A program made the position numbers and the translations under genes. A DNA stretch of 64,000 nt. Source: Amphiura filiformis (taxonomy: Eukaryota; Echinodermata; Ophiuroidea; Amphilepidida; Amphiuridae). The stretch is taken from NCBI RefSeq assembly GCF_039555335.1, contig NC_092644.1:45184667-45248666 (forward strand). The letters are read 5' to 3'. A model generated the notes under the pieces. That model was not told the DNA's origin. It worked only from the letters and a program-made list of their open reading frames with translations, and made no database searches. Each line of letters begins with the position of its first letter. The first letter of the stretch is position 1. This document shows, piece after piece, positions 29,425 to 62,736 of the stretch.

Positions 29425-32400
29425 TCATGTGCTGAGTTTTTCAGATGCAGCGTCACTGTAGTTCCTTGCAAGATTCAGGATGTCATCGGCAAGTTCTGGG
29501 ACAGTTGTGTAGCGACACTTACGTAATGAGAACATATCTCTGGAGAAGCCTAACACATGATCCTGACAAAAGGTAAACAAATATATCAAAACACATGGTT
29601 AAAACTCACTTCACTTACCAGTGAGGTGACAGTGGTACTACAAACATTTTCTTTTACCCAGTCAATGAACAATTTCTACCTAAAACAAAGAAATCTTTAC
29701 TCATGGCAAAGCACTGCATTAAACTTGTCACTATGGTCGCTTTGTGAAATGAATGAATGACAAAACAGTATAAAATGACTTTTGAGCTATTGAAACTTAC
29801 TGGTATGAAATGGTGGCCATGCGCATATTTTGAGGGCGGCTTTGGGGATGCGGGTCCCCGGGGTAAAAGCAGGGGGTGGCAAAAATGAAAGGGCGGTGGA
29901 AGATTAAGGGGCGGCAAGAAGAATTATTAAATGGGCGTGACAGAAGGGGCGGCAAGAAGAATTATTAATGAAAAAATGAGGGAAAATTATGGAAAACTAA
30001 TGTAACTATACCTTTGGCAATTTAGGTGGTGGTGGTAATTGTGTGGGGGGATTCTTTAATGAAAAAAATTGGTTAAAAAATTTTGTGCTAATACCCCCTC
30101 CTCCCTCCCTTTTTAGATTTTCGAGGGCCATCCTGGCTGGAAAAAATTGGTAGAGCCTATTTTAGCGCAGTAACATAGCTAAACATTTATCAAAGCAGTG
30201 TTTATGAATAATATTGTGAATATCGGTAGCCCACCATACGGTTCTTGGTGGAGTCCATGGGGCAAAGATTTGAGCTACTTTAGATACATGCCATATGCAT
30301 GCTGGAAAAAATGATTCACATTGTTGATTCAACAGCCTCCCCACACACACACATGGAACTGTCCCTTTATCCACACCCCCCCCTCCCCATTTGAATATGC
30401 CACTGGATTAACAGGCTACAATGTGATGAAAAACTATTGAAATTGAAAATACAGTTCCTGACTCATGATTATCTTACAGAAAGTAAGTTGCAAAAAAAAT
30501 AAGGCAATACAAATTAAAAGATACTAAAACCACTTTTGGTCATATATCTCAAAATCAAATTCAATGATAACTACCTCATGCTCGGGGAGCCAAGACCACT
30601 TTCTGTGCACTCCCCACAGGATCAAACCAAACGAACTTTTTTAGGTTCCTGAGATTACCCAAAAACATAATCAGGATGTTCCCAAAAATATAAACTGGCC
30701 TCAAGAGGGGTAAAAGGTCATCTAACTTTGCATAGGGTCAAAATTTTAAACTTGTTCAAATTGTGTTAAAAACCATTCCAATGTATTCCCCTAGTCGCAA
30801 GGATTCAGAAAATGTAGTTTGACCTATCTAGGACGTATTGTTCTTGAGTTATAACCAAAAAGGTCAAAGGTCACATTTTTGTCTCTATAGGGGTCGAAAA
30901 CAACAAAGTGCTCCGATTTTGCCAAAAGAGGTGTCAAATTGTTCGTTTTGGTTAAACAAATCAAATAAGGATAGGATTGTAATATCTTGGATGCTTTGTT
31001 ACCTAGGTAACACAGCAAAATAGGTCAAGTAGGCCCGTAATAGAATTCAAAGACTGGATAGTATACTTACTCTGAAGAAGTTCATTAGCTGTAGAAGATC
31101 TGGATCTGAGCCTAGAAACCCCCATGCTAATGCTGGTGTGACATGATACGATATATTGTACACTTTGGCCAGGAAGCCATTAGGATTCTGTAATTAAGCA
31201 AGAGATGGGATTATGTTATTAGAAAGTAATTTTCACCTTATCACCTAACAATGATGCACATATATGCACTGTAAACAAACTTACGGTGATAATAAGAAGT
31301 AGTGCTAAACATGTTCTCCAATTTGACACACACACACTATAAGTAAAAGTTTATTTGAAAGAGTAACATGTGTTTTACACATATGATAAGTTTGGTGAAT
31401 TTTATGGTGTCAGAGTTGGCACTGACTTTCAATGTTATAATTTCATGAATATTCCATGTGTTTTGAAAGACCAACTTATCAATTCCAGATCAACAGATTA
31501 TGGCAACTTACAAGTTTGAAATAAATCCGCTTCTGACAATCACTCATGATGCTGATATTCACTGCCTCCCACTTTATAGAACAAACAATGTATTTTTCTT
31601 TTCTGGCCCTTTTTCTTTTACACTCTTTGTTTACAATTTCTATCTCAACTCACACTAAGAATTTCATGGCTTTTCCAAGACATTTGACCTCTCTTTGGAA
31701 TTTCCATGACCAATATTAACATTATAATAATGACTTTAATTCTGCAATTTCTCCACAAAATACAACGACCATTAAAGAGTATGTGGAAAACCTGCATAGT
31801 AATGTGTCCTTTGACCTTCCATACTGTTTAACTGTAAAATGCTAAATATGTGATTGAGGTATTGTATTGCTCCTTCTATTATGGAAACAGGTTTTCAAGT
31901 TGACACCCATACATTGCCTATGACATAACCTTAACCTTCCACACACAGAGTGAGTGTGAATTTCAAATAGTGTTACCTGAATGGGCAACTCCATTTGAAA
32001 TTCACACCTCCTATGTGGGAGATTACAGTCTTATTATGGGGTTTATGGATTACAACTATAATAGCCCAATTGTGGTGATACCCAGCTTCAATATTTGAAT
32101 CTCTAACATCTGCCTCAAAATTTGATTTACTAAAAAGAATCCAAATTCTAGTTATTTGGACAGACTTACTGACCTGTAACATTCTTCTCTTGGCTGCTAG
32201 CACTGACCACACAGCTGTTGATAAGGCCTGAGAAAAGAATATCAACAGCAAAATAGGTTTAAAAATCAAATTACAGATGCCGTATTGTTTGTAATAAACA
32301 CCCCCAACGGTGTTGCATTTGAAGGGGGACATTTATTAGAAGTGAATTTCAGTGAGAAAAACTGCAAAATTGGGTTCAAATTCCTGATGATGCTCCTGTA

Positions 32401-35400
32401 GAGCGGAGGGATTTACAACTATATTAATACTACTTTCGATTGCGGCGCCCTCGTAATAGCGTGGAACATGATATCTTCATGGAAAATACAACGAAATTAC
32501 ATCCATTAATCAAGCAAGAATCTGATGAAATTAGTGAAATTCTACCATAATTATGCAACAAACTGGATGGTTATAGTTTCAGTCATAATAGGTTTTGTCT
32601 ATGCAATTTAGCGATCGTCACTGACATGACTGATGAAAGATTTAAGCTTACTCACATGATATGGCATGAACATTTTTGTCTATTAAAGGTGGAGCATTTA
32701 ATAGGAACAATACGGGAAGTGGGGTATGAGTATTTACATTAAATCACTTACCGTTTCTTTGACCCTGTTAGACAGCCATCTGTTCTGTGTAATACAAGTT
32801 ACTGATGTAGGTGGTGATTCTAAATCATCAAAAGCATCCAGTAATAAGAAGTCTAATACAATGTCATAGAAAGACATGAACTGCACCTACATGAAATAAA
32901 TATGGACAAAATGTTTTAATTGCTCCTTCATGACTTTTTAATCAAAAGACTTATAAAACTGGCTATATGAATGCTATGGCCAATGTTACTTACTATACTA
33001 ATAAAAACAAGAAGCAGCATGTGGCCTTCACATGTGACATGATCTGATCTACTCAGACCACAGTCTGATATTGGCAATTCTTACCATTTCTAACAGTTAC
33101 TTACTCAGTACCTACACTTACTGATGTTGAAATCCCCATATACCTGGCACACTTGGGTTATACAAAGTCATGATCTTTTATATCAGTTCATTCTCATTGT
33201 CAGAGAATGCACTTCACATTGATCTGCGTCAGATGAAATTGCACCACAGCTTTTAAACTGGTGTGCAAAAGTGCACCCCAATGTAAAAAATTCATTTGAA
33301 GACTGATTGCAATGCATACACCCTGTAGTGTGGCCCTCTATAGCAATACGCACATACGCATACTGTACAGAATAAAGCGTAGTATCAACCCGTCTGCCAG
33401 ATAGCTTCAGATAGCTTCAGATTGAGCATGTTATGCTTATGTTTTATTGTATTTTGCTCCTTATTTTTGCCTATATTATATACATGTATCTCAATTTCAA
33501 TATTGCCAACATTGGTCTGATTAATTCTGCATATATGTTTATATTAAAACAATTATTTCTGAGTCTATAAAATTAATATGTGGAACATGCACATGTCCTC
33601 TGATTGAGTATACACATACTTCCTCACTAACCAAGTGATCGATCCAACATCATTGGGGTTTCCTAAATTACCTCTCCTTCTCGTAGCTCCTAAAGGAATT
33701 TTAAAACTATGTTAAACTTGAAGTTAAAGTGCATGAGTCAATCTTGTGTCAATTATCAACTTACCCCTCTCCCTCTGAGCTCTGCTTCAATCTCTTGCCA
33801 ACTCTCTGAAGCTCTACAGTATTTCATCAAATCATCAAATGTTTCCCCAAATTCTTCCGCATCCTGGGGATAAAAATAATGTTTGAATTAAGAATTGAAG
33901 TATTTGATGGATTGTTGTCAGTCAGTGCATCACTACTTATTCTAGACCAGGTGTCCAATGCATTTATTCCCGCAGGCAAATTTCAGCTTTAGATTAGGTC
34001 CTGGCAGGCCACACTTTTCATTAAAACACCACCTCAAAATGAGTAACATTTTATTTAATAAAATATAGGATTTTCCCCCAAAATACAGGTAAAAAGAAAG
34101 AAAAAGTATGAACACTCACAAAACAGATAAAATCACTGTTCAAATATTTGTTATGGTACATAAGTATTTGTTCAGCTTGAAAATATTATCAGTAAATTGG
34201 TAAGCTGAAATTTAAAGTAATATTATTCATTTTGGGGGCTCAGACACACTCAGCAGGGATGTGAGTGCAGTGAAATGAAAAAAGAGGAAAATGCGAAGCG
34301 TAGCTCCCGCCCATTGCGGCCGGGGGCCCAGGGGCCCGCTCAAGGGCCCCTGGCGGGGGTCGAGGGGGCGGAGCCCTCCGAAGCTCATGGGTTTTAGCAA
34401 TATTAAAACCAATTTGATGATGTTGTGAGCTACTTTTTAGCAGAATTTTGTAATAAAGCATAATTAACAAAATCAATTCATCACTAGTTCTAAATGATAC
34501 ATGTAAAATATCACATCCAAAGATATCTACTTTCAAGTGGTTTACAACACGGCACTCACAAAAAAAAAATTATTAAAAAATAAATAAATAAAAAAAAAAT
34601 AATTTTTTTTTATTATTATTTTTTTAACATTTCGAAGTGGATGATGATATTTCATCATAAAAAGAGCAAGAATTTTTTTTTAGTAGGACGGTACCCTCAA
34701 AGCCTATTCCCCAAGAATAGGCGCAAGAGCTTCGCTCGCTACGCTTCGCCTTCAATATTTTAACCAGTACTTTTTTGGTCCTGGTGACAACCCTGATCAT
34801 GAAATTCAATTCAAAACACAAAGTCATGATACTGCACTACAGTACAAGAACATCGTATACATAAGGCACAAACATCGTGACGTACGCTTTATTACCTGGA
34901 AGTAATGTATTTGATGCTCTGAGTTTCAACACTTTCGTGTGCGCAACAGTCCAAGTTACTCGAACTATATAATACGTTCAGATTTACCTCGTTACGACAA
35001 CCCACAACAATTCAGCAATGGCATCGTAAACAAAACATCGATCCCAACGGCAACGTTCGATGACCGCTGCCATTATGATATGATACTACACAATGCTACA
35101 CATCCTACCACGGATCTCTATACATGCGGTCGTCTTTCGCAAATTAGTCTCATATGCAGGTTTAATACACGCAACGTAAGCAACGTAAGTTAGTCTCATA
35201 CATTAAATTAATGGCAGACAGACGGACGGACAACGTATAATGTATAAATCATTGGGGAAAAGCAAAACGCGGATTTTTAGTTCGGGAAACATAAAAACGC
35301 GACGCAGGCAAGCTAAAAACACATGCCTGACTCAGGGCAGGCCTATCTGAATGCCAAGCCAGTTATATTGTGCACTCATATTCTATAGGCATCAGTAGTT

Positions 35401-38400
35401 ATTTAAATTTCACATGAATTTAAGTTCAAATTTCTATTTGTATAAATTGTTTCTTTGGCCACTTACAACAACCAAATCTACAAATCCTCATATGTGATGT
35501 GATAATGCAAAATTGATATTATGCAAGAAATAACTCATTCAACTTGATTACATCAAATATGACCATCCATCACAAATAGGCTGTAATGTTGGCATTCTTC
35601 ATTTTTGGGATATTAGACAGGCAACATTTCCTCAAAATATGTGTTACATTGATATACATGTATTACATGTCTCTCTTGCTTGTAAGCAAGGTTGTAAAAA
35701 TCAGTAAGTGTTGGGAAATATTTTGTTTTCTGCTTTTTGAGAGGTTTAATGGACCACATCTCAAAACAAGTTCTACCAACATTATGACCCATTGGATGGG
35801 CATATGCTTGATGCATGTGAAACTTACATAATTTGCTTTAAATAGTACATCTCCTATAATTCCTTTGCCCATTGATATAAACCATTCTAGTATAGTAGCA
35901 TCTTGTAGTAGTATAGCCATTGCTTGTCTAACACAATGTACTTTGGCTAGGAAGTCCTCATCACTACGGCATCGGAGCATCTTGGTCCTGTACAAATATA
36001 GATCCATTATAGATGGTGAAATATTTGATATTATACCAAATGTACAGAATTGTGATCTTATATTATCTCCAGGAGAGCACACATGCCTAAAGGAATCTAC
36101 AAAGCACAGTATATTGTGATGCAAAACATCAACAATTTTCAAACAAACAAAACACTAAATATGATTCTAAAGACGAGTGTGGACTCGGCATAGGCCAATG
36201 AGTAACACCATGTGAAAATCCACCATATTTGATATGCATGGGTCCCAAAGTGTACCTCCAGTATTCATTAGCAAAGGTTCAGAATCAATATATTAAGCAC
36301 TTTCAAGTATGAGTATTCTAAACATGTTTGTGCATGTAGCGCTTTGTATGCATGTATCAGCCCAACATATTACATGAAAATTGTAAAACAAGAAACACTT
36401 ACAAATATGAAAGTTTACTAGGCACATGTATTATCACTCAGACAAAGGGGGCCCACTTCTCAAGTCAAGTGTATGAACCTCTCCTAGCTGATAAATACAA
36501 CCGCTTCAGTCAGGATACATCCAACCGGAAGTACGGAACTAAGGAATAGCAATCATCATTGTGATGATGCCTATCAATCATGATAGGTGAAAACAGGGTT
36601 CCTGTTAAGGTTTTAAAAATGTGCGTCCGTAATGACGCAAGTTTGCTGACGAGGTTGCAAAAACTTGCGTCCAGACAGATTTTTAAAGCGCCCATCTGAA
36701 ATTCACGATTATGACGATACACACGCATTCCCGGGTCTACACCTCATCAAATGTTGATTGTTAAAAAAAAATAAAAGTGCATTTTCGCCGTGATATTCCA
36801 TCTCCATTCGCTATAATAATTTTTCACATTTCTGTGTCAGTTTTGGTGCGAAACGTGGTAAAAAACAGGTGCAAAAACATGAGCAAAGTCTGTCAATCTT
36901 GACCAATATTCGTTCGTACTTTCACTTCCGCGTTTCTATTTTTAAATTAACGTGCTGTTGATGCTACAAAAACTAAAACACGCGCTGCCACAAATAATAC
37001 TGAAAAAGGGTTATCATTTAGATTTTGTCTTTAAAATTGCTTTTATTCATTGTAACAATAATACTAATAAAGGAAACCTAGATTATTAATAATGAGAAAA
37101 AAAACTTAAAATATTAAAAATTGAATATTGTCAGGTTGTGATAAATAATTAAATAAACACCGCACGTTAGCGGCACGTGCTAGTAAACAAATCAATCGGG
37201 ACTCCCCAGGCCATGTGATCAAACAGCTGTACAGCGATCGCTCGAAAGCATGCAAAAGTGCACGATTTCCTGACGTTGCATTTACAAATATTGCAGAATT
37301 TACTTCAATTCTCAGCAGGTGGGTCAAAATTTTGGGGCTTTTATTATCTTAAAATATAAAAGAATAAAAATTTCTTATTTTTATCATCAATTAATGATAC
37401 AATTTGAAGTTTTGTCTGCGTCCAAATGCATGTGACATGGACGCAAAATACTTGATTAGCCATGTGAATTTGCGTCCAAATTTGTAAAATACGCGTCTGG
37501 ACGCAATGACGCACACTAACGGGAAGCCTGGGTGAAAAGTAGTGAATAAATGTTTTGACTTTTTTTCAGAAGAAATCTCTTGTAATGATGCTTGTGGTGA
37601 CCGTTTCTAATTGTTCAATGATACATTTTCATGGAAGTTGCTTACCGTTTTCTCCTGCATTGAATACCACCTTCCTGTGCTGCCTGTAAAGCTCTCTCAT
37701 ACAGATCTTGTTTTCTATTCAGGGTAGGTGATTCCAATCCACTAGCCATTTCCTCCAATTCTGCAAGCTACACATATTGTAATAATAATAATACACGGAA
37801 AAATTATTTAGTTTGTCAATGTACAAAAACACCTGCCCTAACATACTGCTTCACTTATGCTGGTTTCAAACTTTCCTGCCGCTTGCCGCTTTGAAGATAA
37901 TTTACTTCATTGCGCACTGGGCAGTCGCACCAGAATCACTAGCGGTGACCATCGGCAAGCCGATATATTGATCACTCCACCGCTTTGCTGCGGCGGCAGC
38001 ACTGCTGGGAGTTGAATTCAAATCAACTCGGGATGTGCCGCTCTGATGTATGAGAACAGAATATGATTTAGGAGGCGTGCTGAGTGGCAAGAGAGGTTTT
38101 CAGAGTCACGCCGCTGCCGGTCAGTAGTGTGCCACTACGCTTGATGAAGCGTCACACCGCTCAGCAGCAAGCGGCAGAAAGTATGAAACCAGCATTAGTG
38201 TGTTTGTAACTATTATATATAATAACGTTTTTGTTGAGAGTGTCTGCCTCTTGTCTCTTGTGTCAAAAAAACCTCGTTTAGAGGCATATATATGCTTGTA
38301 GACGGAATTTTATGGTATAATATAAACAGAAATCCATACAACACCTATGGAAGACATGACCTTAATCTCCCACACAGGGGTGTAGATTTCAAATCAAATC

Positions 38401-41400
38401 ATCCATTCAGGTAACCCCATTTGAAATTCACACACCCTGTATGGAAGACATGACCTTAATACTCAGCACAGGGGGTGTAGATTTCAAATGGAGTCACCCA
38501 TTCAAGTAACCCCATTTGAAATTCCCACCCTTGAGTGAAAGATTAAGGTCATGTCTTCCATAGGGGATGTGTGGATTTGACCTGGAATAGCCCAATCTCT
38601 TGTACAACTTACCTCAGTTGCTGACACAAATGAATCCGTAGTTGAATCATTATCACTATCTGATAACCTCCTCTCTTTGTACAAGGACAGTTCACCACTC
38701 ATCTCATTCAAATCTGATGAACTCAACACTGATACTGGCAAACTAAACACAGTCTCTTCATACTCAGCTTGCAGTGAGTATGCATCACTTAGGATTCTTT
38801 GCAATCTTTGCTCCATATCTAGTGGCATATTAGGGCTATTTCATTATAAATGACAACATTGAGTCCCAAAAGGGGTCAAAATTCAAACTCATTTATTTCA
38901 TGCAAATTCATTATCATTTCAAAGTTCAGATGGTGTGTCAATAATTCTCAAAATATTAGAGCGTCAAACCCTCAGGAACCATTAAAAAATTAAATTGAAT
39001 TTTTGCTGTGTAAAACATAGCTGCCGTCTGGAGGGACATTTTTTAAACAATTTAATACACAACTTTGAAAGAGTATATGTAACCAACATTGGGTTCATAC
39101 TTATTCATATTTAGTCTGTAATAATTGTTGTATGTTCCTTTACACTTCAGTGTCTTAAATATGCCAGTTTCAATATAAAACAATTAGTAAATTGATACTA
39201 ATCCAGATAAATGGTGCAAAATTACTACATATTTTAAGGATAAACTTTATCTTCAAATGAAAAATTCATGAAATAGTCATTTTGTCCTGCCCAATAGCTA
39301 CACTGATGCATAAGTGAGTATTCTGCGTCAATCTGTTGTACTAGTCATGGAAAACCTAAAATAAAAGACCCTCCTGTGTCATTTGTTCTGGATAGGACAC
39401 ATTTTTTAACACATAATAAAGCATACTTTAACTTTAGAAATAGCTGCATCAATATTATTGCATCAATATTATTGCATAAAAGATCCCCAGCATTTAAAAT
39501 CCACTACAAACAGGGTTAATATTCTGGTTAAATTAGGAATATTGCAATTTTTAGCTAACCGAAGTTCAATGCAGAATAATATCATATGTGTTCTCAACAA
39601 CTGGACAATAATTTGAACACTAAAGTGGTTTGTAAGCATAATTTGCAATAAAATGCAAAAATTTCTTGTGGGTTTGGCTCTTTGAAATTTTTATTTTTTT
39701 AGTTTGTTTACCAATTCATGGAAATGACATAATTGTGCTGGAGAGGACATTTGTTAAATTGCAAACAGAATCGTGGATACAGGCTTGCAAAAATGCAACA
39801 AATACCAAATCATGTGCCACATTGGTAGAAGGAAGACCACTCTTCCTCTACAAATTTCACATTCTATGATATAATCCTTCTTATTTCAACAATTAGTAAT
39901 TAACTTCAGTTCTGGAGAGGACAAATTTTTAACGCGGAACTGTGGTATCAAGAACAAGTGGTCTACTGTATGTAAAATAAATGAATTCCTCAATCAGTGC
40001 CCTGTCCCATCAATTGGTAATATAACACAGATTATACAGGTAGGGTAAGGGTTTATATTTCCTCTTTAATGTTAACAAAAATGGAGGCATGAATTGGAGA
40101 GGACACTCATTTTTTATTTAACGCAAAAATGCCAATTTTGCAAGAATCGACAGAATTTTAACATTTTTGCACCAATTTTCACCATTCAACTTGCATGATG
40201 TTCCACACATATCATATTTTCATTGCAACAAGCACATTGCCATAGAATGTACCTAATTTTTCAAAGAATTAATTCAGAATACATGGGCAAAATGAAATGG
40301 GACTCAAAAATTGGGTTAAAAATGTACCTTTTGGCAATTTTTTATACAAAAAATAGACAGAATTCTGTAAAAATGCTCATGTAGCTTGTAGTTTGTGGCA
40401 TACTTAGAATTAAGTTAATAACACTGCATTATCACCCTAATTATATCAACCAGATATGATAAAAGCCATTTTTGTGAACGTGTCATTTATAATGAAATAG
40501 CCCATTATCCTGAAAAACACAATGAGAATTATTATCTGTACAAAGAAAGTATTGTTACACTACAGTAGGAATTCCAATTGATTGAACGCAGCTTTCAACA
40601 GCTGTACTCGATCCAACTGCGATCGTATATCACATATTTCAAACTACAACGCGAAACGCACGATCTTGGATACAATACTAACCAATCACAAGTGCGTTGG
40701 CATGGTTGGATTCACTTCCGCATTACTAACGCACACATTGGCGTACATCGCGCATTGTATGCAAAAAAAGTCACGCTATGTCAGGCTGTATTCATTGTAG
40801 AAGAGAACAAGTTCTTGATGAACAAATCAATACCAAAATTTGATACCAAGATTTGATACCAGACTAACAATGTGACTAATTAATTCCTGCAATTATTTTC
40901 CGATTCTTGCTCTAACTTATAAGAGATTAATTTCATTTGACAAAAAATGCCATGAAAATTTGGGAATTGCATTATTGCACAGTACTTTTTTCAAAATATA
41001 CTCGCTGCAACTCCAACGTTATAGGGGGTTAACAATGACTTTGGAAAAGACATACAAAACAACAAGAAAGACAACAACAATAACAAAATGACATTTCTAT
41101 TTGCTCCACCTTTCATTCCTTCCTATGTTTGACAACTAATTTTTTTATCATTTTTTACATTTTGGATTCAATATTGCTTCACTTACAGTTTCATCCAATC
41201 CATATTCCTCTGTACCATGCTGTAAATCATCTACAGCATGCTCCCAGTATGCAATTGCAGATTCAAATGACTCCACTCCTGCATTGTAAAATAAACACAT
41301 AAATGGTAAATACTCGATAAATTATTAGATTCTTCCAGTAGAAACAACATGCAATAATTTCAACCAGCCCCTCCTAATACCACCAACCAAAATCGTTGTG

Positions 41401-42507
41401 TTAGTGCAAGAATCTGCATTTTTGTCATACAATTTACTTCGTTCCATGCGTGTGTATCAAGCATAAAATCAATAAATATGTTAGACATTCATGCAGGGCT
41501 CAATTTGGTACATATTTAATAATATTTATTTATCACCAGGGCTACATATGGATATTATTTGAATATTTCTGAACAGAACTAATATAGCCCTTACATTTCG
41601 CATGCCATGGTGGCAATCTAATAGAAATAGGGGACAACAACATTTTGCTATATTGTTACGACCTCTACATACATACATTATATCTAAGGACTGTATTACC
41701 TAACCGAAACAGCCTTTGGACGCTGACAGGCTCATTTGTTGGTGTGTGTTCTCCACTTCTTAAAGTTGATTCACTGGCTAGTGAGTTAACAGAGCCAGCT
41801 AAACTATTGTTGGCACTGGACTGGCCAGATTTTTTGGACAGCAATGACCTATTTGACCGTGAGAGTCTTGACATAGCTCTGGGTGAACCACCTTGTGGGC
41901 TGATTAGTGGTCTTCTGTAGGCAACCTGCATAGCTGTTGGTAAACAGTAACATATAAATAAAGTCAATGTGAGTAAAAGTAAAATGCAATACATTCAGAG
42001 TCTGTTGTAGTTTCCGTTTTTACACACATGTACAAATTTTGGGCATTTTCAATGTCATGAAAGGAATAACATTTTACACTGCACAATTTGCCGACACAAA
42101 TATTTTCTTTACTTCAACATAATTTTCTATAGACTTGACTGGTTGAAACCTCATTTTAAGCCTAATTTTATATTCTTTCACTTCAGTGCAACTAAAATTT
42201 AGAACAATAGTGTTGTTGTAAATGAAAAATGCCACACGTGACCGTGTGGATGTGGTAACAGTACCTTGTGGTAATGTTTTTGAGTATGACCTAAACATAA
42301 CCTTAATTTTTTTATAATATTCATATCGTTTCAAGAATACTCACGTCCATTAGAACTCCTGCAACTGAGACTACTATGTCTTGATAGACTGACATTCTTT
42401 CCTTTCTTTCTTTTCTTTCTCTTCAAGAAACTTGCTGCAATAATCAGACTGGCTACTGCTGATACAGCTACAGCAATAGCAATCCTAGCTCGAAATCCTA
42501 ATGGCAT
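29425..42507 (-). CDS. MIGA: Mitoguardin (outer mitochondrial membrane protein, MIGA/FAM73 family)
   Basis: Coding exons in transcript order: 42507-42345, 41933-41700, 41278-41187, 40509-40504 with 38828-38613 (split by a transposon), 37767-37646, 35987-35828, 33863-33765, 32886-32752, 32227-32174, 31187-31071, 29562-29425. All junctions are GT/AG and in phase, giving about 511 residues. The N-terminus MPLGFRARIAIAVAVSAVA then LIIAASFLKRKKRKKGKN is a membrane anchor followed by basic residues, as expected for outer-membrane targeting. A Ser-rich linker follows. The family core runs from GVESFESAIAYWEHAVDDL through RCRSDEDFLAKVHCVRQAM, FYDIVLDFLLLDAFDDLESP, ALSTAVWSVLAAKRRML and ALAWGFLGS to RDMFSLRKCRYTTVPELADD. 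Mitoguardins act at mitochondrial fusion and at ER-mitochondria contacts, where they bind VAP proteins and move lipids. SFVSATE after an acidic, Ser/Thr-rich stretch resembles a phospho-FFAT VAP-binding motif. An acceptor TTTTCAG lies 8 bp before the start codon's AAAA leader, implying a non-coding 5' exon upstream. Confidence 0.93.
31900..32035. repeat. Palindromic repeat with GAATTTCAAAT / ATTTGAAATTC, intronic
   Basis: The block CATAACCTTAACCTTCCACAC, GTGAATTTCAAAT, GTTACCTGAATGGGCAACTCC, ATTTGAAATTCACACC is a relative of the element at 38329-38581, which has the same words in the same order. Intronic in mitoguardin. Confidence 0.6.
34255..34765. repeat. GC-rich interspersed repeat with GCTTCGCTCGCTACGCTTCGCC tail, intronic
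   Basis: An island of high GC (34305-34390: GGCCGGGGGCCCAGGGGCCC, CAAGGGCCCCTGGCGGGGGT) and a CGCTTCGCTCGC-type tail (34728-34752) lie in a mitoguardin intron, around an A/T homopolymer stretch (34560-34625). Similar sequence lies at 54200-54480. Probably a dispersed repeat rather than a CpG-island promoter, since it is internal to the gene. Confidence 0.6.
36594..37530. mobile_element. 937-bp hAT element in mitoguardin intron, TSD GGTGAAAA
   Basis: Begins CAGGGTTCCTGTTAAGG and ends CTAACGGGAAGCCTG. Flanked by perfect 8-bp duplications GGTGAAAA (36586-36593, 37531-37538). Subterminal words GTGCGTC, GACGCAA and GCGTCCAGAC occur at both ends in inverted orientation. No transposase ORF. Confidence 0.88.
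38329..38581. mobile_element. ~250-bp palindromic element, 32 bp from a mitoguardin exon
   Basis: The left end AATCCATACAACACCTATGG / AAGACATGACCTTAATCT is mirrored at the right end (AGATTAAGGTCATGTCTTCC / ATAGGGGATGTGTGGATTT). Internally, ATTTCAAAT(GG)...CCCCATTTGAAATTC is repeated twice. It sits just past the donor of exon 38828-38613. Confidence 0.75.
38833..40503. mobile_element. 1671-bp TIR element inserted inside a mitoguardin coding exon, TSD TAAT
   Basis: 23-bp perfect terminal inverted repeats start GGGCTATTTCATTATAAATG (38833-38855) with the reverse complement at 40481-40503. On the transcript strand the flanks read TTTTTCAG|GATAAT, element, TAATATGCCACTAG, giving a 4-bp TSD TAAT. 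Removing the element plus one TSD gives GAT AAT ATG CCA CTA GAT ATG GAG, in frame with both neighbouring exons. Five internal copies of TGGAGAGGACA(n)TTTTTTAA are spaced about 180-370 bp apart. No transposase ORF. Confidence 0.9.
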
Positions 42508-44040: not shown

Positions 44041-46554
44041 CAGGGTTCGATTTAACTTGTGTCATGGAGCAAAATGCTCCCCATTTTGGACAACCTGCTA
44101 CACAAATTCCAGCTTGTATAGCAATTTTTTACAATGTAAACATACATGTAAATAAATGTAAAAACAGCAGAAAATGATGCAAATTTCACCTTGAAATTTT
44201 GCTACACGCAGGGTTCGATTTACTTTGAAAAATGTGCGTAGCAATTTTTTAGCGAAAACCTTATTTAGGTGATGTTCCATGTACCTCCATGTATGTAGTT
44301 ACTCCATTTCCGGAGGTTCTGCGCCTGAGCGCAAAACCTCCAAAACCGGAGGTTCTGCGTGATAACGTCTTGAAACTCCGTTTTGGAGTTTTTTATACAT
44401 CATAAAACCTCCGATATTGGAGTTTTTGTGCATCAAAACTAATGTTAAAAAATTGTTTAAACATGCTTAAGGTAGCTGCCTCGGATACAACACCCTTGCA
44501 GAAAAATAGCTCCTGTGTCTGATCAATCAGGTCTATCCATTTAAATCTTTTAAACATAACAAAGAAAAGTATTTTCCCCACCTATTTTAAGAGTCTTATA
44601 AGAATTGTAACAATTCTTATGTTTTTCTTTATTTTTTGAAAATTCCCTTAATTTTGACAGTTTTTGATTTTTTTTGCCCACTTTGGAAGGAGCTATGGTT
44701 ACCAAACTTTCAGAGATGGTACCGTCAACCAGTGCTGTACGGTGCGACCAATTTAGGCGCATTGGCGACTAGATTTTTTCTAATGCGACTAAACCTTCAA
44801 TTCCTGGCGCCAATGGCGACCAACTAAAAGCTTTTAATTGCCAGCAATTCTAGTATATCGGTCAAAAGTTTTGATTGTTTTTTAAGTACTCAAGATGGCG
44901 TCATAATCAAAAAGAACTTTGAATTTGATGAACTTTTTTGGAACAAGGAGAAGGAGGATGAAACAAAAAAAAGCAGGGAATCCAACAGCTATTAATGATG
45001 CAAGTTGTACTAGTGGTGCTATGTAAGGTCATGGAACTGGAAATGGAAGTAACTTGAACGTAGATTTAAACCATTGTGGCAGACTTCGAGCGGTTGGAAT
45101 ACGAGTTGGCGCCTCTTACTTAGGAGCAAAATTTGGGCGCCTAAATTTATCAAGTTAGGAGCCATTGGCTCCTCAATCAGTTTTGGCACCGTACAGCACT
45201 GTATATAAGCTTAATATCTAAATTCTCTCGTCAGTTTTTCTGGATAAAGTGTTTACTTTTTGAAAAAAATTATTTTTTCCATTTTTAATTTTAGGGAATG
45301 TTAGAAACACTGTAGCTTAAAATAGAAACACTTAATTGGAAAAAACTGACGAGAGAATTTAGATATTATTTACCACCCCTGAAAGTTTGGTAGCCATAGC
45401 ACCCTTCCCTGTTGGCTAAAAAAATCCTAGAATTTAGGTAATTTAGTGTTTCTAGAAAAAATCAAAAAATCATAAAAAAGTACCAACATTCCTGTTAAAT
45501 AAAGTAACACTAAGTTAGAAAATAAACTTGGTTTGAATTATTCTGTGATATATTGGCAGCAAAATGAAACTTAAAACTTTTATATACAACTGCTTTAAAG
45601 GAGAGAAAAATCAGTTTTAATAAAATCTTTGTTTTCAAAAATGTTGCTATTTTGAGAAATTGGCAAAGTGCCAAAAGCCCTTCCCTGTAGTAATTCAATG
45701 GGATTTTGAGATGACAAAAATTGCGGAACTGAAAAACGCTTTGTTGGAAAAAATTAAAACTTGGCAAGTAAGGTTTTCTCATCAAAACACACATCCTATA
45801 TCATTTTCAAGGAGTTCTGAGCATGACACCATAGCCGATACAGCCACCTTAATCTTAATTACTTTTAGTATACGCAAAACTCCAAAATCGGAGTTTTTAG
45901 CCGTCACTGCAGAAAACCTCCGATATTGGAGTTTTTAGCATCAAAACTAATGTTATAAAATTGTTTAAACATGTTTAATCTTAATTACTTTTAGTGTGGA
46001 TACGCAAAAACTCCAAACTCTGAGTTTTTGCGGCCGTCGCAAAACCTCCGATATTGGAGTTTCTGCGTATCAAGACTAATGTTATAAAAATTGTTTAAAC
46101 ATGCTTAACTTCATTACTTACACAAAAACTCCAAAATCGGAGTTTTTGCGCCCGTCGCAAAACCTCCGATATTGGAGTTTTTGTGCATCAAAACTAATGT
46201 TATAATAAATGTTTAAACATGCTTAAATTCTTCATTATACGCAAAAACTCCAAACTCTGAGTTTTTGCTCCCGTCGCAAAACCTCCGATATTGGAGTTTT
46301 TGCGCATTAAAACTAATGTTATAAAATTGTTTAAACATGCTTAATCTTAATTACTTTTAGTATGATACGCAAAAACTCCAAAAACGGAGTTTCTGCGAAC
46401 GTTATACGCAGAACCTCCGGTTTTGGAGGTTTTGCTCGGCGCAGAACCTCCGGAAATGGAGTAACTACATACATGGAGGTACATGGAACATCACCTAAAT
46501 AAGGTTTTCGCTAAAAAATTGCTACGCACATTTTTCAAAGTAAATCGAACCCTG
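44041..46554. mobile_element. 2.5-kb hAT-type element with TSD CGTATAGC and long inverted arms
   Basis: Begins CAGGGTTCGATTTAACTTG and ends CAAAGTAAATCGAACCCTG. Flanked by perfect 8-bp repeats CGTATAGC (44033-44040, 46555-46562). A second left-type end CAGGGTTCGATTTACTTTG lies at 44209. From there the sequence is the reverse complement of the right end over more than 120 bp. The mirror symmetry also continues outward past this inner end (44155-44208) and past the right TSD (to about 46612). No transposase ORF; the sub-repeat array is listed separately. Confidence 0.8.
45875..46400. repeat. Tandem array of ~110-130 bp units built of AACTCC/GGAGTT palindromes
   Basis: Units start at about 45881, 46003, 46128, 46240 and 46371. 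Each has CGCAAAAACTCCAA-(A/C)TC(G/T)GAGTTTTTGCG, then AAAACCTCCGATATTGGAGTTTTTG, then ATCAAAACTAATGTTATAAA and TTGTTTAAACATGCTTAA. One further unit lies alone at about 44398-44470. Each unit can fold into two hairpins. Non-coding. Confidence 0.85.
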
Positions 46555-47492
46555 CGTATAGCAAAATTTCAAGGTGAAATTTGCATCATTTTCTGCTGTT
46601 TTTACATTTAAATTTGCCTTCTTTGAAATTTTCAGAAAGCAGGACTGTCCCTCTTTTTCACTTTGGAAAACCCCAAATGAGGACCAGGCCCTCAAAATGA
46701 AGGGCATGGAAAATAATATTTTTTGTAGACTTCATCGAAATTTGAATGCGCCGCCAATCTTTCTGCATATCTTGCGTCCGTGTGGAATGACGCAATAATG
46801 TTTCCCATGGTAATTGGTGTGTTGTGCATAGTTGTTTACAGAATTCATGTGTTTGGAGATTAAGAGGCGATAGTTATCTGAATCAGGCCGATCTGTGAAA
46901 ATTCATTGAAATCGGAGATTGGCACTGCCAATCTTGGGGTGAATCGGCCAACACTAACTGTCATCATCACATTCATATCGGCACCTCATTTTTGATGATC
47001 AAGCTGTGTAGCAACGTGTGACATATAATTCTTTTTATGCGATAATCAGGAAGAGTAGTAGGCAGTGTTGGACGTAAGACATTTTTATGCGTAGCATTAT
47101 CAGCTTGCACTACTTGATTTTTGTTACATTTGCACACTTCACTGTACATATAAGTCTATGGCATATAGGCCTACATGTAATTGCTAGATACATTTCCAAA
47201 ATTGTGTAGCAAAGTGATACGAGCTATGGCCCACGCTGGCAGTCAGGCAATCGTGCCGCCGTTTCCGTGTCGGTGCGCTCACCCCGCTCACTGTCTTTAT
47301 GACTATCCACTATCGTCTTATAATGTATAGGTCATGCGAGCGCCCTGTTAATGAGCGACATACAGGGAGCTTTTGTGTTCCCTTTAACTTAAAGTTTAAG
47401 GACGCTGATCTGCACCGACCAACGACTTCACACACAATCAGCCAATCAGATTATTTTCTCGCCGGTCGGGGCCAAGTCACATGCATCCATTC

Positions 47493-55021: not shown

Positions 55022-55045
55022 GTGGAGTATTAGAAGAAGTGAACC

Positions 55046-58000
55046 ATGTCTGGTTTTGAAGAGGTTGGAATAGCCGGTAGTGATCACCTGAGAGAGGCAT
55101 TGACTAACTGCACTGATCCACAGCAAGCCATAGAAGATTTTCAAGCTGAAAATGGGATTCTATTACCAACACTACAGCATGCTTTACCCTTGCTAGATCT
55201 ACATAATATCAGGCGTCTAGAGTTTCACCAGTCCATTATGGAAGAGCTCAACGAAAGACTGATAAAAAGAACAGCTGAGCTAGCAGGAAGCGACGACAAG
55301 AAACGCTACAAGAAGATCGAAGATCTGCTCTCAAAATGTTTCCCGTTAATAAGGAACAAAGTTGTCCAACCAGTGGTGATGTCAGTTATGAAGTGCTTGC
55401 CAAAAGTACCAGAAAAGTACTTGTCTGTTCTTGTAGAAGATAGAGAGCTTTATGAAGTTGCAGCACCGGAAGTGAAGCGGCAGATCTGGGAACAGAATCC
55501 TTCTTTGTTTGGTGATGAAGTGTCTCCGCTGTTGTCAGAATACATCAAAAACAAAGAAGCTGTCTTGTTTGGTAATGACAGGGTGAACTCGCACATGTTC
55601 TTTTCAGTCCCACCAAAAACACGTCGTCAGGGAGACGTGGTGCAGAGACTGACACAGATGGTTGGGAAGAGCATCAAGTTGTACGACATGGTACTGCAGT
55701 TTCTCAGAACTCTCTTTCTTAGGACTAGGAATGTTCATTACTGTACTCTGAGAGCAGAGTTGCTCATGTCTCTGCATGATGTGGAGACAAATGAAATAGT
55801 TAATGAGGATCCTTGTCACAAGTTCACATGGTGCCTGGATGCTTGCATCAGGGAGAGGTTTATTGATGAGAAAAGATCAAGAGAACTGCAAGGGTTCTTG
55901 GATGGAGTAAAACGTGGACAGGAGCAAGTTTTAGGGTAGGTGTACTAGGGTATTGATATGTAGCATGATCTGATTCACTCGGACCAAAGTTGGTTATTAA
56001 TTTTTAATCAATGTTGAAATCGGCAGGGAATTGGTATTTTTTGCTTCCATCAATTTCGTTATTGGCAACTTTCTTCTGATTTGATCAGATCTTGTCACAC
56101 ATTGCTCAATTTGTACCGGTTTCAGCCAGGATGTGATAACCAGTTTGGAGCATTTTTGGAGAAAGTCCCTGCTCATTATCATCACTGCATAGTTTCATTT
56201 GATCATCATAAATCGGGGGAGGAAACAAATGAAGTCATGACAACAAGAATAGAAAAGTCAAATTCAAGGGCAATATGGTAGGATGAATTCCCAGGCATGA
56301 GAATTTTCAGGTTAAAACCTGAATTCAGGTTTTTTTGTTGTCCAAATTTAAATGCAATTTCATTTATTTTTAACCCTTTAAGTATTTTGGGCCATTTTCA
56401 TGCTACTTTACAATGTTCCAATTTTTTTTAGAATAGTTCATTCTCATGCCTGATTACTGCATCACTTGTGTGCATAAGTAGTACTATTTTAGGGTGGCAG
56501 ATTTTGTCACTGTCAGCCATCATGGATGCATGAATAAACCAAGTTTTCTCTTTGTTTGTTGACAAAGATTCGACATTGGAGTCTAAATTTTGGTGATATG
56601 CATATAGCCAAAGAAAAATGAAACTACAACAATGCTAGTACTGAGAAGCTCAAACATAATTGTGTTCATAGTGAAACTTTCAAATAGTTACATTTTGGCA
56701 GCTACAACATTGTGTTTTTTATAAATTTCAAAACATTCAAGAAGCAAAACTTTTCAAAAGTGTTGTCTCCATGCATGTAATTCATATCACATTTTTCTTC
56801 ATGTCACTTACAATGGCAAAACATTTGATCCTATTTTACAGGGACCTGTCTATGATCTTATGTGATCCATACGCAGTGCATACCGCAGGTCTTAGTACCA
56901 TCAAACTTCTGGTGCATCTTGTCAGCCAAGAGAAACTACCAAGAGTAAGTCTTGTTGAGCTAAAGTAAGTGATTACTGTCAGTGTAACAATTTGAGTGAA
57001 CAAGGTGAAGTAAATTATATTTAAAAATTCTTAAACATTTGAGATTGTTCCTGCAATCCTTTTGGTTCTTGACCATGTGATATGACACAATTATAAACAT
57101 GATTCAACATGTGCATACTCATTATGTGAACCAATCGGAGGTGCATAGCATCAACGGGACTGATTGATTTTTAAGACCTAGGTAATTCCTTGTAAAATGT
57201 AGGGTTTCATTTGCTTAAAATTTGGCATACTTAAATACTTATAAGTGATATTTTTAATTGAAGTGTTTAAAAATGGCGTAAAACAACTTGGCTTTGCCTC
57301 ATTGTTTTACTTAAAATAATGATGTCGCCTGTGTTATATGGTCATTTTCACGGTAAAGGGTGTAACTTTTGATTTTTAGGGTCAACATTTCAAACCACTT
57401 AAATATGTTTCTGTTTACTGAAATCATGCATAGAAACAACTTAAATTCCAGTAAAATAATGTTTCAAGGCTTAAACCTTTTGATTTCTAATAAAAATTTG
57501 ACATTTGCATAACATTTTGGTTAAAATCTAAGAAAAAATGTATTTTACATAACCTCAGAAAATTTTGACATGAAAGCTGGAATACATGTGAAATTCCATT
57601 CCAAAGTAAGTCAACAGATATAAGTTAAATTTTATACCATGTTTTGCTATGTTTGTAATTGCAGTTTTGAAAATTTTAACATCAAGTGTCATTTACAATG
57701 GAAATTTCCAAACCTTAAACATATTTTTTAAGTTTTAATTGGGTTCCTAAAATAATTTGAATGTCTAACTTCATGTACAAATACTCAGGATTGAGTTTTA
57801 AGGCGTGCAGTGCGATTCTGCACGCGCCTTGCGCCTGAAAATACGCCGAGGGGTGCGATTTTTCGCACACCTAAAAAAAAATAAAAAAAAATAAATTTTT
57901 TTTTTTTTTTTTAAGTTTTATTTTTATTTAGAATGTCCCTGAACTTAAAAATGTCCCTGGAAATATTTTTAATTTTTTTTTTTAAACTTGAAAAAAAAAT

Positions 58001-61000
58001 TACAAAAGATTAAAAAATTATAAATTCATGTTCAAAATAGGCAAATTTGTAATTGATGTTCACATTACAACCTATTTATGAAGTAAAGAAGCATATAAAA
58101 CAAATGCATTTTAAAATCATTCATAGATTATTATGTGAACATAATTTACAAATTTGCCTATTTTAAACAAGAATTTATAATTTTTTAAATCTTTTTGTAA
58201 TTTTTTTTTTTTAATTAAAAAAAATTCCATGGACATTCTAAAGTTCCTGGGACATTCTAGGGACATTCTAAATCCAAAAAAAAAACTAATTAAAAAAAAA
58301 AAAATTACAAATGACACTAGCAATAAGTCCAAAGTCCAGGGACATCTATGCAGTATACACCATTCATTACCCCAGAGCTTTTACCATGGCCATTAAAAAA
58401 AAGTACATGTATGTTGTCACAATTGCTAAGTTTTAGCTGAAAATGAAATCATAGTCATGTATACCAGTTTTGAAAAAAGCACACCTTGGTTTATTTAGGT
58501 GTGCGATTTGCAGCACACCTAAAAGCACACCTCGGGTTATCCAGGCGTGCGATTTACAGCACACCTGTCATATTGCAAAACTCAATGCCTGAATACTACT
58601 TGATGAAAGGAACCTCCCAGCCAAGTTTCACAGAAATTGGAGTTATTTTTTAGAATTGGCAATTCAAGCGATTTGTGTTTCGGAGGCTTCAGTTAACAAC
58701 ACAGGTGATCATAAAAGTAAAATATTTAGCTAACTACTACAAGTTGACATAAAAAATAGGTAAAAATATCACAATTACCAATTTTCATGCTTTGCTTCTA
58801 AGTATTGAATTTCAGTTGTGACAAAATTAAATTATCACAGCAAGTCATTTTTTTGTTTCGGAGGCTTCATGTTAACAATTGTTAAACATTGCAGAAGTAG
58901 TTGTTTTGAATACAACAGTGTTGGGATCATCTAAGCTGTTATTTTCTTGTGTGTATTGAATCAATGATTCTATGCGGCAGATATTGTAGATTTATCACAC
59001 ATTAATTTTTTCACCCATTTGTTAAGTATGGTGTTTTTTGCATGTGAAGCCTCCGAAACAGGCTTTTTAAGGTATCAATATATTTTTCAAACATTAACCA
59101 TAATGTCAATTTTTTTTTAAATTTATGACATTCTGCACATATCAAGTAATAATTACAATGCAGATATCAGTATGAAACACACCAATTTAGATATGCATAG
59201 ATGATAATTAAGTTTATTGTTGTTTCGGAGGCTTCATTTGTTTCGGAGGCTTCAGTTGTTAACGGAAAGTTTGTATTGGGTCCCATTTTCAAACGGTGAT
59301 ATATATCTCCACGATTTAAAAACATGTGACTTGAGGATCTACTTTGCTACATTTTGATAAATAGATTGGATGAGCTCTTTTATTTATATTTGCACAAGCT
59401 TGCTGAACAGTTTGTTTCGGAGGCTTCAAAAAGTTAACGGAAAAACGGCTATTTGAAGTCAAGATTTTATAAAAATTTTAAAAGCTTGCAAATCGGCTAA
59501 TTTTTGTTACCCATTTCAAGTTAAGATAACAACTGTTATGAATCAAGAAGAAGTGAAGAAATAACCAAGAATTATGAACCAAAGCTACACCCACAAAGTT
59601 TGTTAACAATTGTTAACGGAAAATGAAGCCTCGAAACGACAAATATTGAAGTCCGGTTCTCAAAAATACAGGGCCGTTCACAATTAAATCTAATGTGGCA
59701 GTGTTTACTGAACATATGACTGTACTTTCAGGATAAGAAAAATTATCCATGAACTAACTGAAGAAAACACAGGGTTTTACAAAAATGTTACTGTTTTTTA
59801 TAGTTTTTCAAAATGGCAATATTAAGTACATTTAAGCCTGCTAAAACTGAACGCAGTAACTCCCAAAGCTGATTATGCTACCCAAGGTAGCTGCTAACTA
59901 GATGACTTATGCGGCCAAAAATCATGGAATTCAGTGGCTTTATTAGAACACTACGGTTTAAAATGTTAAAAATCCAAAGTTACACCCTTTACCGTGAAAA
60001 TGACCATATGAGACAATAGATGCAGGACAGCGGCTACAAACAATACCTTTATTCTCTAATTATAATAAAGGAAATGCTTGTCATTGTGTTTGGGAACAGC
60101 ATTTCAGACTTATGGTACCGTACAAAAATGTATGTAAAATTTTAATGAATTTAAAAAATAAAAGTCATGATAGATTCTATATGTTTATTATCAGAGTTTG
60201 TAGTTCATCACAAAGTAATTGTAATTGTGAGAATTAACTTTGATTTACTCAACTCCATTCAGTTCACAGATTCTTGCCCAAATTGTAGTTATAGTACTTG
60301 GCATAGTAAGGAAAATCATGAGTTCGACAACAATAAGCTTACAAATACAATTGATATTTCTTGTTACTTTGTATATATTTGTAGAAAACATTTGATCTTT
60401 TATGAAATCAAATGTTGTTTGATCTCAATATATTAAATATCTTAAAACATAATAGATTGTGTTATTTTTCCTCCAATGTTTATAGGACAGTCAAGTTTTG
60501 ATGCTACTTCTCAGAATGCTGACACTGGGCTTGGGAGCATGGGATATGATTGACAAACAACAATTCAGAGAACCAAAGTTGGTGAGTATTTTGAGATAAA
60601 TAGGACAAGGTGGAAATTTGATATGGTGGAGAAAGCCTTCCAATATATGTTATCCCTATCTCTAGCAAATCCCAGACAATCCTGTACCCTGGGTGTTTCC
60701 ACTGGAACAACGTGGGGCAGGGTAACAAACATTAAGATTTATATGTTCACAGCTTGTCACTTCTTCTTCTTGCTGCTGAGCAGCCAGTCTCGTGTGGAAA
60801 CATCAACTTCAGAGAGTCCCTTGGCTCAATTTGGGGTCAATGAAGGTGACAAGCTTTGATGATGTGGTCTGCCGTCTGCTCTTCCTTTCCGCACTCACAA
60901 AGTGGGCTTTGGGTGAGGCCCCATCTATGCATACATCTAGATGCATACTGGACCTACTCCTGTTCGCAGGTGGTTGAGTTTCACCCATGCATGGCGTGGC

Positions 61001-62736
61001 AAATCCGAGCCAGGGCTTGTCACAATAATTATTAATAGAAACTTGTACTGGAGTGGTCACTGAGAATTGCATTGTTACACTTATATTTGGATAAGCTGCA
61101 TGTCATGTGACACAATCTGGTCCATGGAGACCAACGGATGCATTTTTGAAAATTTTTGGCCTGCATGGATTAGATCGTGTCACATAATTCGTCGGTCGCA
61201 ACACATAGTGGCGTACGTGAAGGACAAAATACGTCTCCGAGCAAAACGTTTTTGAAGGATATGCTACCAGTAACGGAGTCGATACTCCTCCACTGTTATC
61301 TCTCAGTGGCCCGATTCCATTTGAAATTAAAGTTAAAGGTTCAAACTATTAAACTGTATCTTAAATAGTTAACAAGGAATAACTATTATAGGATATTAGC
61401 TAGCTCTAAACCTATACGCCACTATGTGAAACGGAAAATTTGGAAAATGGCTATACGCCACTATGTGTTGCGACCAACGATATGTAGTGTGAAATGGTGT
61501 GGTACATCTGCTCATATGCATGGCGGTCTTCATTCTTTCTCAGTGGTAAGACTAATTTTTGTCTGTTTTTCAGGAAAATGACCTTATACTGAAATTCATT
61601 CCATCCTTGATGTCACTCCTGGTTGATGACAATATGCGCATCATCAACAGGCGTCTCAACGAGAACAACCTGGAAAACGAAGCATTCCAGCAATCTTGCC
61701 CAAATTCATCAAGAAAGATCGCATCGCAGCAACTCTGGTCCTGTACTACGTCCTACACGCGACCAAAATGCGCAACAGAGAGGCGCTGTGTCGCATCCTA
61801 CCCAACATTGTAAGGACTGAAAGTAATTTGTCATACGATGACATCTTTCTGCATCCATTCCCATCCCAGCTTGTGCCCATGGTGGAGGATTTTACACAAG
61901 AACAGTTTTGTGAGGCATTGTTTGACCGGTTTCTTTTGGTGCATCTTGGTTCACAAGAGAATGTGACAAGACATACGTTGAAGCTGCTGGAGCATGTTTT
62001 CCCAAAGCTGCCATCTGAAAGACTGACCAAACTTCAGGGGATACTAGAACCAAAACCTGGGGTGAGTGTTGCTATCATACATCCACTATCAAATCATTGG
62101 CCCTATGATTTTCCCTCTCATTTCCCCATGACTCTGAAAGGAGTAAGTGGTGGCCAAAGAAAAAGGCAAAGAGCCAGAAGTAGCTATGTCCATAATTACA
62201 TGTTACTCATTTCGGCAACAAATGGACGGTTAATTTTGCCCTCTATAAAATATAATGTAAGTCACTTTGGGGGTATGTATACATGGTCACTTGCGTCTAA
62301 CTAACCATGCTAACTGTTTAAGTGACCATGCATACACCCCAAAGTCACTAGCATTTATTATGGAGAGCAGAATTAACCATCCATTTGTTGCCGAAATGAG
62401 TAACATGTAATTGTGGACATAGCTACTTCTGGCTCTAATCCAGTTTTTACAACGACAATATATTGTACTATTGCCAAAATCCATTTGAAGTCACTGTTTG
62501 CATTTTAATTTAGATTTTATTCTGTGATTTTGTGCAGGCAGTGTATTTTTGTAAAAGAATAAGGGCTCATTTTTTTCGTTTCTGTTTTTGTATTTTTACA
62601 GCACAGTCAAGATGTTCGTGAACTCTACACAGCCATCATGGACAAGATCAACTCATACACACCAAGTCCAAAGACCCCTGCAGCAGAGCCTATTGACTCC
62701 CCGCTCATAAGTGTCCCCACGCCTGCGCCATTATGA
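55046..62736 (+). CDS. NELFB: Negative elongation factor B (NELF-B / COBRA1)
   Basis: NELF-B is a core subunit of the NELF complex, which with DSIF holds RNA polymerase II in promoter-proximal pausing in the nucleus. Exons 55046-55935, 56842-56944, 60486-60581, 61574-62061 and 62602-62736 (TGA 62734-62736) join with GT/AG and consistent phases, about 570 residues against roughly 580 in human. Recognisable conserved stretches are LTNCTDPQQAIEDFQAENG, QPVVMSVMKCLPKVPEKYL, EVKRQIWEQNPSLFGDEVSP, KTRRQGDVVQRLTQMVGKSI, LYDMVLQFLRTLFLRTRNVH, DPCHKFTWCLDACIRERF, DLSMILCDPYA, GLGAWDMID, LYYVLHATKMRN and the C-terminal VPTPAPL. The Met at 55046 follows an in-frame TAG (55031) in the same exon. Exon 4 has a one-base frameshift: the frame ending ENNLENEAFQQ must change to ILPKFIKKDRIAATLV around 61640-61696. 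All else looks intact, so an assembly indel or a recent mutation are both possible. Confidence 0.94.
57336..60009. mobile_element. 2.7-kb TIR element in NELFB intron 2 with TTTCGGAGGCTTCA repeats
   Basis: 34-bp perfect terminal inverted repeats start ATATGGTCATTTTCACGGTA (57336-57369) and are mirrored at 59976-60009. The motif TTTCGGAGGCTTCA occurs six times (58678, 58856, reverse at 59045, 59223, 59240, 59414), often next to GTTAAC; a seventh degenerate copy is near 59624. A separate palindromic element is embedded at about 57795-58568. No TSD or transposase found. Confidence 0.85.
57795..58568. mobile_element. Fold-back element with GTGCGATTTTCGCACACCTA ends
   Basis: The outer motifs GGTGTGCGATTT and GCACACCT recur at both ends. 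The interior is a long imperfect palindrome: CAAAATAGGCAAATTTGTAATTGATGTTCACAT against ATGTGAACATAATTTACAAATTTGCCTATTTTA, and AATGTCCCTGG against CCATGGACATTC. AT-rich and non-coding, nested in the 57336-60009 element. Confidence 0.7.
61188..61478. mobile_element. ~290-bp element with GTCGCAACACATAGTGGCGTA inverted ends, NELFB intron 3
   Basis: Left GGTCGCAACACATAGTGGCG and right CGCCACTATGTGTTGCGACC are exact reverse complements. A further CATAGTGGCGTA-type word lies internally (reverse, near 61419-61430). No TSD seen; borders approximate. It ends about 95 bp before exon 4. Confidence 0.75.
62170..62436. repeat. Long near-perfect palindrome (~120-bp arms), NELFB intron 4
   Basis: AGAGCCAGAAGTAGCTATGT at the left is mirrored by ACATAGCTACTTCTGGCTCT at the right. 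Pairing continues inward through ATTACATGTTACTCATTTCG, CTCTATAA and CACTTTGGGG, leaving a short loop around 62293-62316. Probably a fold-back MITE; the intron RNA would form a long double-stranded stem. Confidence 0.85.

Follow-up and report, generated by a model that had tools for sequence, protein, structure and literature searches.

A non-autonomous DNA transposon interrupting exon 4 of an otherwise intact mitoguardin gene of Amphiura filiformis

The window analysed here, that is, the whole stretch of 64,000 nucleotides, contains on its minus strand a mitoguardin (MIGA) gene whose fourth exon is interrupted, six bases past its acceptor, by an element bounded by perfect terminal inverted repeats (TIRs). 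That a DNA transposon has inserted into coding sequence of this gene, which is intact in all other respects, is well supported. We further consider it probable that this is a young insertion of a non-autonomous DNA transposon in a working gene, likely to be polymorphic, and that the resulting allele is null or hypomorphic. The young exonic insertion of such an element is an ordinary kind of event; its value lies mostly in being a clean test case, since each junction, reading frame, and alternative product can be predicted to the single base and the products would distinguish a null allele, exon skipping, use of a cryptic acceptor, and SOS splicing.

The mitoguardin gene and its interrupted exon

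By reading the exon borders off the sequence, with phases that agree, we obtained a mitoguardin gene of 11 exons, which runs on the minus strand from 42507 to 29425 and is complete apart from the insertion (table 1). All 10 introns are bounded by GT..AG and match in phase, and the frame spliced with an empty insertion site comprises 1536 nt, stop codon included, and encodes a protein of 511 amino acids. This protein gives one match to the Pfam family Miga (PF10265; 433.6 bits, E-value 1.9e-129), extending over residues 8-505 and over positions 16-536 of the 540 of the profile, and its C-terminal half matches three distinct PDB sequences, named Mitoguardin 2, Mitoguardin 1, and "MItoGuArdin homolog". 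The open reading frame (ORF) containing the remainder of exon 4 matches Pfam Miga as well (E-value 5.5e-06); searched alone against the PDB, the exon 4 ORF returned four matches with E-values of 0.53 to 3.6, none of them to a mitoguardin. Searches of prokaryotes (genome_contigs) and viruses (viral_contigs) with the 511-aa protein gave 262 and 27 pattern-matching stretches, respectively, and no relatives among them. The first-pass annotation of this DNA had taken the rest of the gene to be intact, which agrees with the 511-aa Miga match and with the absence of any disabling change outside the insertion (0 across 1533 coding nt plus 40 bases of splice sites).

Two other descriptions of the locus were rejected. 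A decayed pseudogene does not fit, since the other exons are open and the splice sites sound, and a second exon 4, whether a duplicate or a mutually exclusive alternative, was not found in the window, where tblastn of the exon 4 peptide hits one place only.

The last codons of exon 4 read SFVSATE, with an S-F-x-S spacing as in S246/F247/S249 of fly Miga, and precede the lipid-transfer domain. Judged by eye, they correspond to the phospho-FFAT motif, which binds VAP proteins (PMC9239997, PMC7556861); S292/S295 of mouse MIGA2 offer a further comparison (PMC9239997), and in fly the FFAT motif (S246/F247/S249) is required for Miga function (PMC7556861).

Elsewhere in the window, two ORFs match COBRA1 (PF06209), at 55043-55936 (+; E-value 3.1e-103) and at 61630-62301 (+; E-value 2.6e-07); they lie on the strand opposite to the mitoguardin gene and run away from it. 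We take COBRA1 to be negative elongation factor B. An ORF at 2455-2766 (+) contains a partial trypsin domain (PF00089, E-value 1.6e-12), and an Rfam search of the window gave no match.

Table 1. Positions of the mitoguardin exons, the inserted element, and associated features in the window
Feature	Position	Strand	Remark
Exon 1, start codon and hydrophobic N-terminal stretch (presumed membrane anchor)	42345..42507	-	
Exon 2	41700..41933	-	
Exon 3	41187..41278	-	ends in phase 0
Exon 4, first 6 nt (GATAAT), separated by the element	40504..40509	-	preceded by acceptor TTTTTCAG, phase 0 when joined
Target site duplication copy ATTA	40504..40507	+	
TIR, other arm	40481..40503	-	inverted-repeat match to 38833..38855
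Non-autonomous DNA transposon-like element, without long ORF	38833..40503	.	TIRs and target duplication
TIR, one arm	38833..38855	+	sequence GGGCTATTTCATTATAAATGACA
ATTA copy of the target site duplication (transcript strand: TAAT)	38829..38832	+	
First codon (CAA) after the best in-frame cryptic acceptor ATATGGAG/CAA	38808..38810	-	first exonic base 38810
Exon 4, remaining 216 nt	38613..38828	-	donor GAG/GTAAGT, phase 0
Phospho-FFAT-like (VAP-binding) motif, codons SFVSATE, end of exon 4	38613..38633	-	by eye
Exon 5	37646..37767	-	
Exon 6	35828..35987	-	its ORF: Pfam Miga 1.2e-15, solved MIGA2 1e-11
Exon 7	33765..33863	-	
Exon 8	32752..32886	-	
Exon 9	32174..32227	-	
Exon 10	31071..31187	-	
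Exon 11, with stop codon	29425..29562	-	

Read along the transcript strand, the acceptor TGTTTTTCAG comes first, then GATAAT, then the element, and after it TAATATGCCACTAGATATGG. This order, along with an element length of 1671 bp and perfect TIRs of 23 bp, had been proposed from a first reading and is found as described (38833-40503, 23/23). Exon 3 ends in phase 0, as had also been stated (GAT GAA ACT/GTAAGT), and when the element is removed GATAAT meets ATGCCA to give DNMPLDMEQRLQ, with GAT AAT ATG CCA in phase 0; the exon 4 border of the empty site would read TTTTTCAG/GATAATATG. The original acceptor of exon 4, ATTCTCATTGTGTTTTTCAG/GAT, scores 7.70 on a small matrix made from the nine other acceptors of the same gene, which is suited to ranking only; 42 of the 3251 minus-strand AG sites reach this score, a count that includes this acceptor and whichever matrix sites score as high.

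If the element is retained and the normal acceptor used, the frame reads ...DETDNGLFHYK and then meets a stop as codon nine of exon 4 (codon 172 of the frame), leaving 171 amino acids. The two acceptors near the element that had been dismissed earlier are no remedy: with CCACTAG the frame is indeed lost, and behind GAAATAG the reading comes upon CCC TAA. Deletion of the element with one copy of TAAT brings exon 4 into phase 0 with both neighbours, so the proposal that exact excision restores the gene holds for the frame. It is nevertheless uninformative on removal from RNA, because exact removal restores the frame after any exonic insertion that duplicates its target; the restoration confirms the insertion and carries no information on what happens to the transcript. 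As for an ordinary intron at the position of the element, this was rejected: from the acceptor up to the first in-frame stop there is no GT, the sole GC in that stretch reads GCTATT, and intron 3 has its own donor and acceptor.

Structure and classification of the inserted element

The two TIR arms are complementary at 23 of 23 positions, and a scan of the 64 kb that allowed up to three mismatches finds the TIR sequence at these two places alone (0.00 expected, 100 shuffles). The element is flanked by a 4-bp direct repeat, ATTA on the plus strand and TAAT on the transcript strand; by chance, the ends of 1671-bp intervals match over 4 bp at 343 of 62321 window positions (0.55%). The longest stop-to-stop frame lying fully within the element measures 75 amino acids, and the two frames scanned, out of 16 internal frames of at least 40 amino acids, gave no Pfam match at an E-value of 1. 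Inverted repeats and a target site duplication, two marks of a TIR DNA transposon, are both present, and a transposase of its own, which only an autonomous element needs, was not found by frame length or in the two frames scanned. Judged by structure, the element is a non-autonomous TIR-type DNA transposon, a classification that follows from the TIRs, the target duplication, and the absence of a long frame and of a Pfam match in the two frames scanned; the word transposon itself is based on the first two. The usual fixed target duplications are TTAA for piggyBac, TA for Tc1/mariner, a 3-bp TWA for PIF/Harbinger, and 8 bp for hAT. The 4-bp ATTA fits none of these four.

The locus is represented by a single assembled sequence, and a mis-assembly or haplotype artefact might in principle have put the element into the exon. 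However, exact TIR borders together with a matching 4-bp target duplication are the signature of a real insertion, and we regard an artefact as exceedingly unlikely.

Neither blastn nor the TIR scan turned up a second copy in the window, the only other blastn match being one of 29 bp at 58283-58311 (86%, E-value 0.002). Exact matches to the 23-nt TIR in viral_contigs and to 20 nt of it in genome_contigs were both zero, which says little about animal DNA because these collections hold viruses and prokaryotes. On the transcript strand, the element contains three AATAAA and two ATTAAA.

Several further repeats were noted. The motif CTGGAGAGGACA occurs four times on one strand of the element with at most one mismatch (39388-39399, 39738-39749, 39912-39923, and 40094-40105); with up to two mismatches, the whole window has seven matches against 2.33 expected. 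A second MITE-like repeat lies at 38330-38593 in mitoguardin intron 4, its end GGGCTATTCCA starting at intron base 20 and matching the end of the focal element, GGGCTATTTCA, at 10 of 11 bases. The exact string GGGCTATTYCA is found at three places in the window, all at the focal element and the 38330-38593 repeat, and a diverged relative is present at about 31894-32067. Upstream of the mitoguardin start, a 2458-bp stretch (44153-46610) has 173-nt arms that are 99% complementary, and is perhaps a larger foldback or TIR element; a 712-bp stretch at 10565-11276 has 100-nt arms that are 100% complementary.

Age of the insertion and predicted fate of its transcripts

The TIRs alone date the element poorly, as up to 12% divergence is allowed at 95%. 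A closer bound comes from the gene. On the assumption that the allele is null and fixed, and with assumed indel/substitution ratios of 0.15 to 0.05, the lack of disabling changes outside the insertion limits the divergence since insertion to a D of 0.0094-0.0166 (about 0.9-1.7%). It follows from this bound that the allele is either young, within the range of polymorphism in an outbred species, or not null.

The sequence of events that we favour begins with a non-autonomous TIR-type DNA transposon that would have entered exon 4 recently, six bases past the acceptor, duplicating TAAT. The sequenced haplotype would then be a young and probably polymorphic allele, with an empty site expected in the other haplotype or in other individuals. 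Transcripts spliced at the normal acceptor would run into the element and yield the 171-aa product, which has no lipid-transfer domain, and RNA entering the element would probably be degraded or polyadenylated early. Exon 4, now about 1.9 kb long, would probably be skipped in part of the transcripts, with the frame kept and 74 residues lost along with the VAP-binding motif. Because the outcome would be either truncation at 171 amino acids or skipping with loss of this motif, the allele would be null or hypomorphic for ER-mitochondria tethering.

The first-pass annotation had offered two outcomes, a null allele or removal of the element from the RNA. That choice was incomplete, as it overlooked two in-frame products of ordinary splicing, exon 4 skipping and a cryptic acceptor at 38810. 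Exon 4 totals 222 nt (6 + 216) and has phase 0 at both ends, so that skipping keeps the frame; the resulting open frame of 437 amino acids loses residues 164-237, among them SFVSATE, and still matches Miga (390.3 bits, in two stretches). These phases and this open frame are what speaks for an old and tolerated insertion, in which exon 4 would be skipped efficiently and the 437-aa mitoguardin without VAP-binding motif would be the working product. Yet the part of exon 4 beyond the element shows no decay, its 216 nt being open and lying in a Miga-like ORF (E-value 5.5e-06), and in fly Miga function needs the FFAT motif (PMC7556861). We therefore hold skipping as the working product to be very improbable, and retain it as a partial outcome of the young allele.

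As for the cryptic acceptor, 124 AG sites lie between the donors of exons 3 and 4, five of which are open and in frame. Use of the best of these five, ATATGGAG/CAA, would let the spliceosome remove the element together with intron 3 at a cost of eight codons (DNMPLDME), the product junction being GAAACT joined to CAAAGATTG. This site keeps phase 0 with a frame that stays open as far as the donor of exon 4, its score of 0.80 exceeds that of the weakest acceptor of the gene (exon 5, -0.44 by leave-one-out), and the junction CCC/TAAT creates a branch-point-like CCCTAAT at 38835, about 19 nt upstream, which fits ynyTrAy. The same site, however, ranks 44th of the 124, falls below nine of the ten real acceptors of the gene, and has no pyrimidine tract; it faces stronger competitors in a site at 39965 within the element (9.43) and in the original acceptor (7.70); and ynyTrAy is common on the transcript strand, at about 5.8 per kb. 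Removal of the element by this route is in our view an improbable outcome. The site at 39965 (TTTATTTTACATACAG) is the top-scoring acceptor-like site between the two donors, and through it parts of the element could become exonic.

Removal from RNA by SOS splicing has as its structural precondition a TIR element in an exon whose TIRs pair in the RNA. Tc1 is spliced out of worm pre-mRNA. Here an exonic TIR element is present and its TIRs pair by prediction only, in an RNA helix of 23 bp (-33.6 kcal/mol) of which all 23 pairs appear when the element, with 40 nt on either side, is folded to minimum energy; they were again present in 8 of 8 folds after shuffling of the interior, and in 0 of 8 once one TIR had been shuffled. 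The TIRs would pair, an endonuclease would cut near the stem, and RTCB would join the ends independently of the spliceosome, giving a full-length or nearly full-length mRNA. The otherwise intact state of the gene is consistent with this, and so is the existence of the pathway in animals, for which a review on the tRNA ligase complex has unknown endonucleases carry out the excision and RTCB the joining (PMC13247085). Paired TIRs do not discriminate, however, as this anatomy is common to any TIR element in a transcribed exon, and we judge SOS splicing at this site quite unlikely. The DNA itself gives nothing that shows the element to be cut out of RNA; the locus is a test case for SOS splicing and no evidence of it. 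That it might be a natural germline substrate in a non-model animal, where a gene-breaking exonic insertion would be phenotypically silent, is correspondingly doubtful. Were it true, the substrate would be one found in the germline of a wild animal, and the affected gene an ER-mitochondria tether, whose loss should be visible.

Comparison with known systems

The young insertion that we favour resembles MITE-like exonic insertions in its TIRs, its short target duplication, the lack of a detected transposase, and the disruption of the host exon, and differs from them in that ATTA/TAAT lies outside the usual fixed duplications (TTAA, TA, TWA, or 8 bp). With SOS splicing (Zhao et al. 2026, as described in the review PMC13247085), it has in common a TIR element in an exon and a predicted pairing in RNA, and it differs in that its exact restoration is a trivial consequence of the target duplication.

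Introners with TIRs and 4-bp duplications are known, with an example from Symbiodinium located in an exon (PMC9860276), and TIRs with a 4-bp target duplication in an exon are likewise what the element has in common with them. In contrast to introners, which have splice sites at or near both borders and are present in introns in many copies, it offers no GT donor before the first in-frame stop past the acceptor, has only a weak in-frame acceptor behind it, and occurs as one copy in the window. Because no GT precedes the first in-frame stop, it could at most extend intron 3 through the new acceptor at 38810.

With respect to PIF/Harbinger elements, the 4-bp duplication departs from the usual 3-bp TWA, and no transposase was found. 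In mPing, which belongs with PIF/Harbinger/Tourist, matching duplications make repair precise (PMC4561436), and by analogy the matching duplications on either side of the present element might likewise allow it to be lost exactly, so that reversion of the mitoguardin allele at the DNA level is conceivable.
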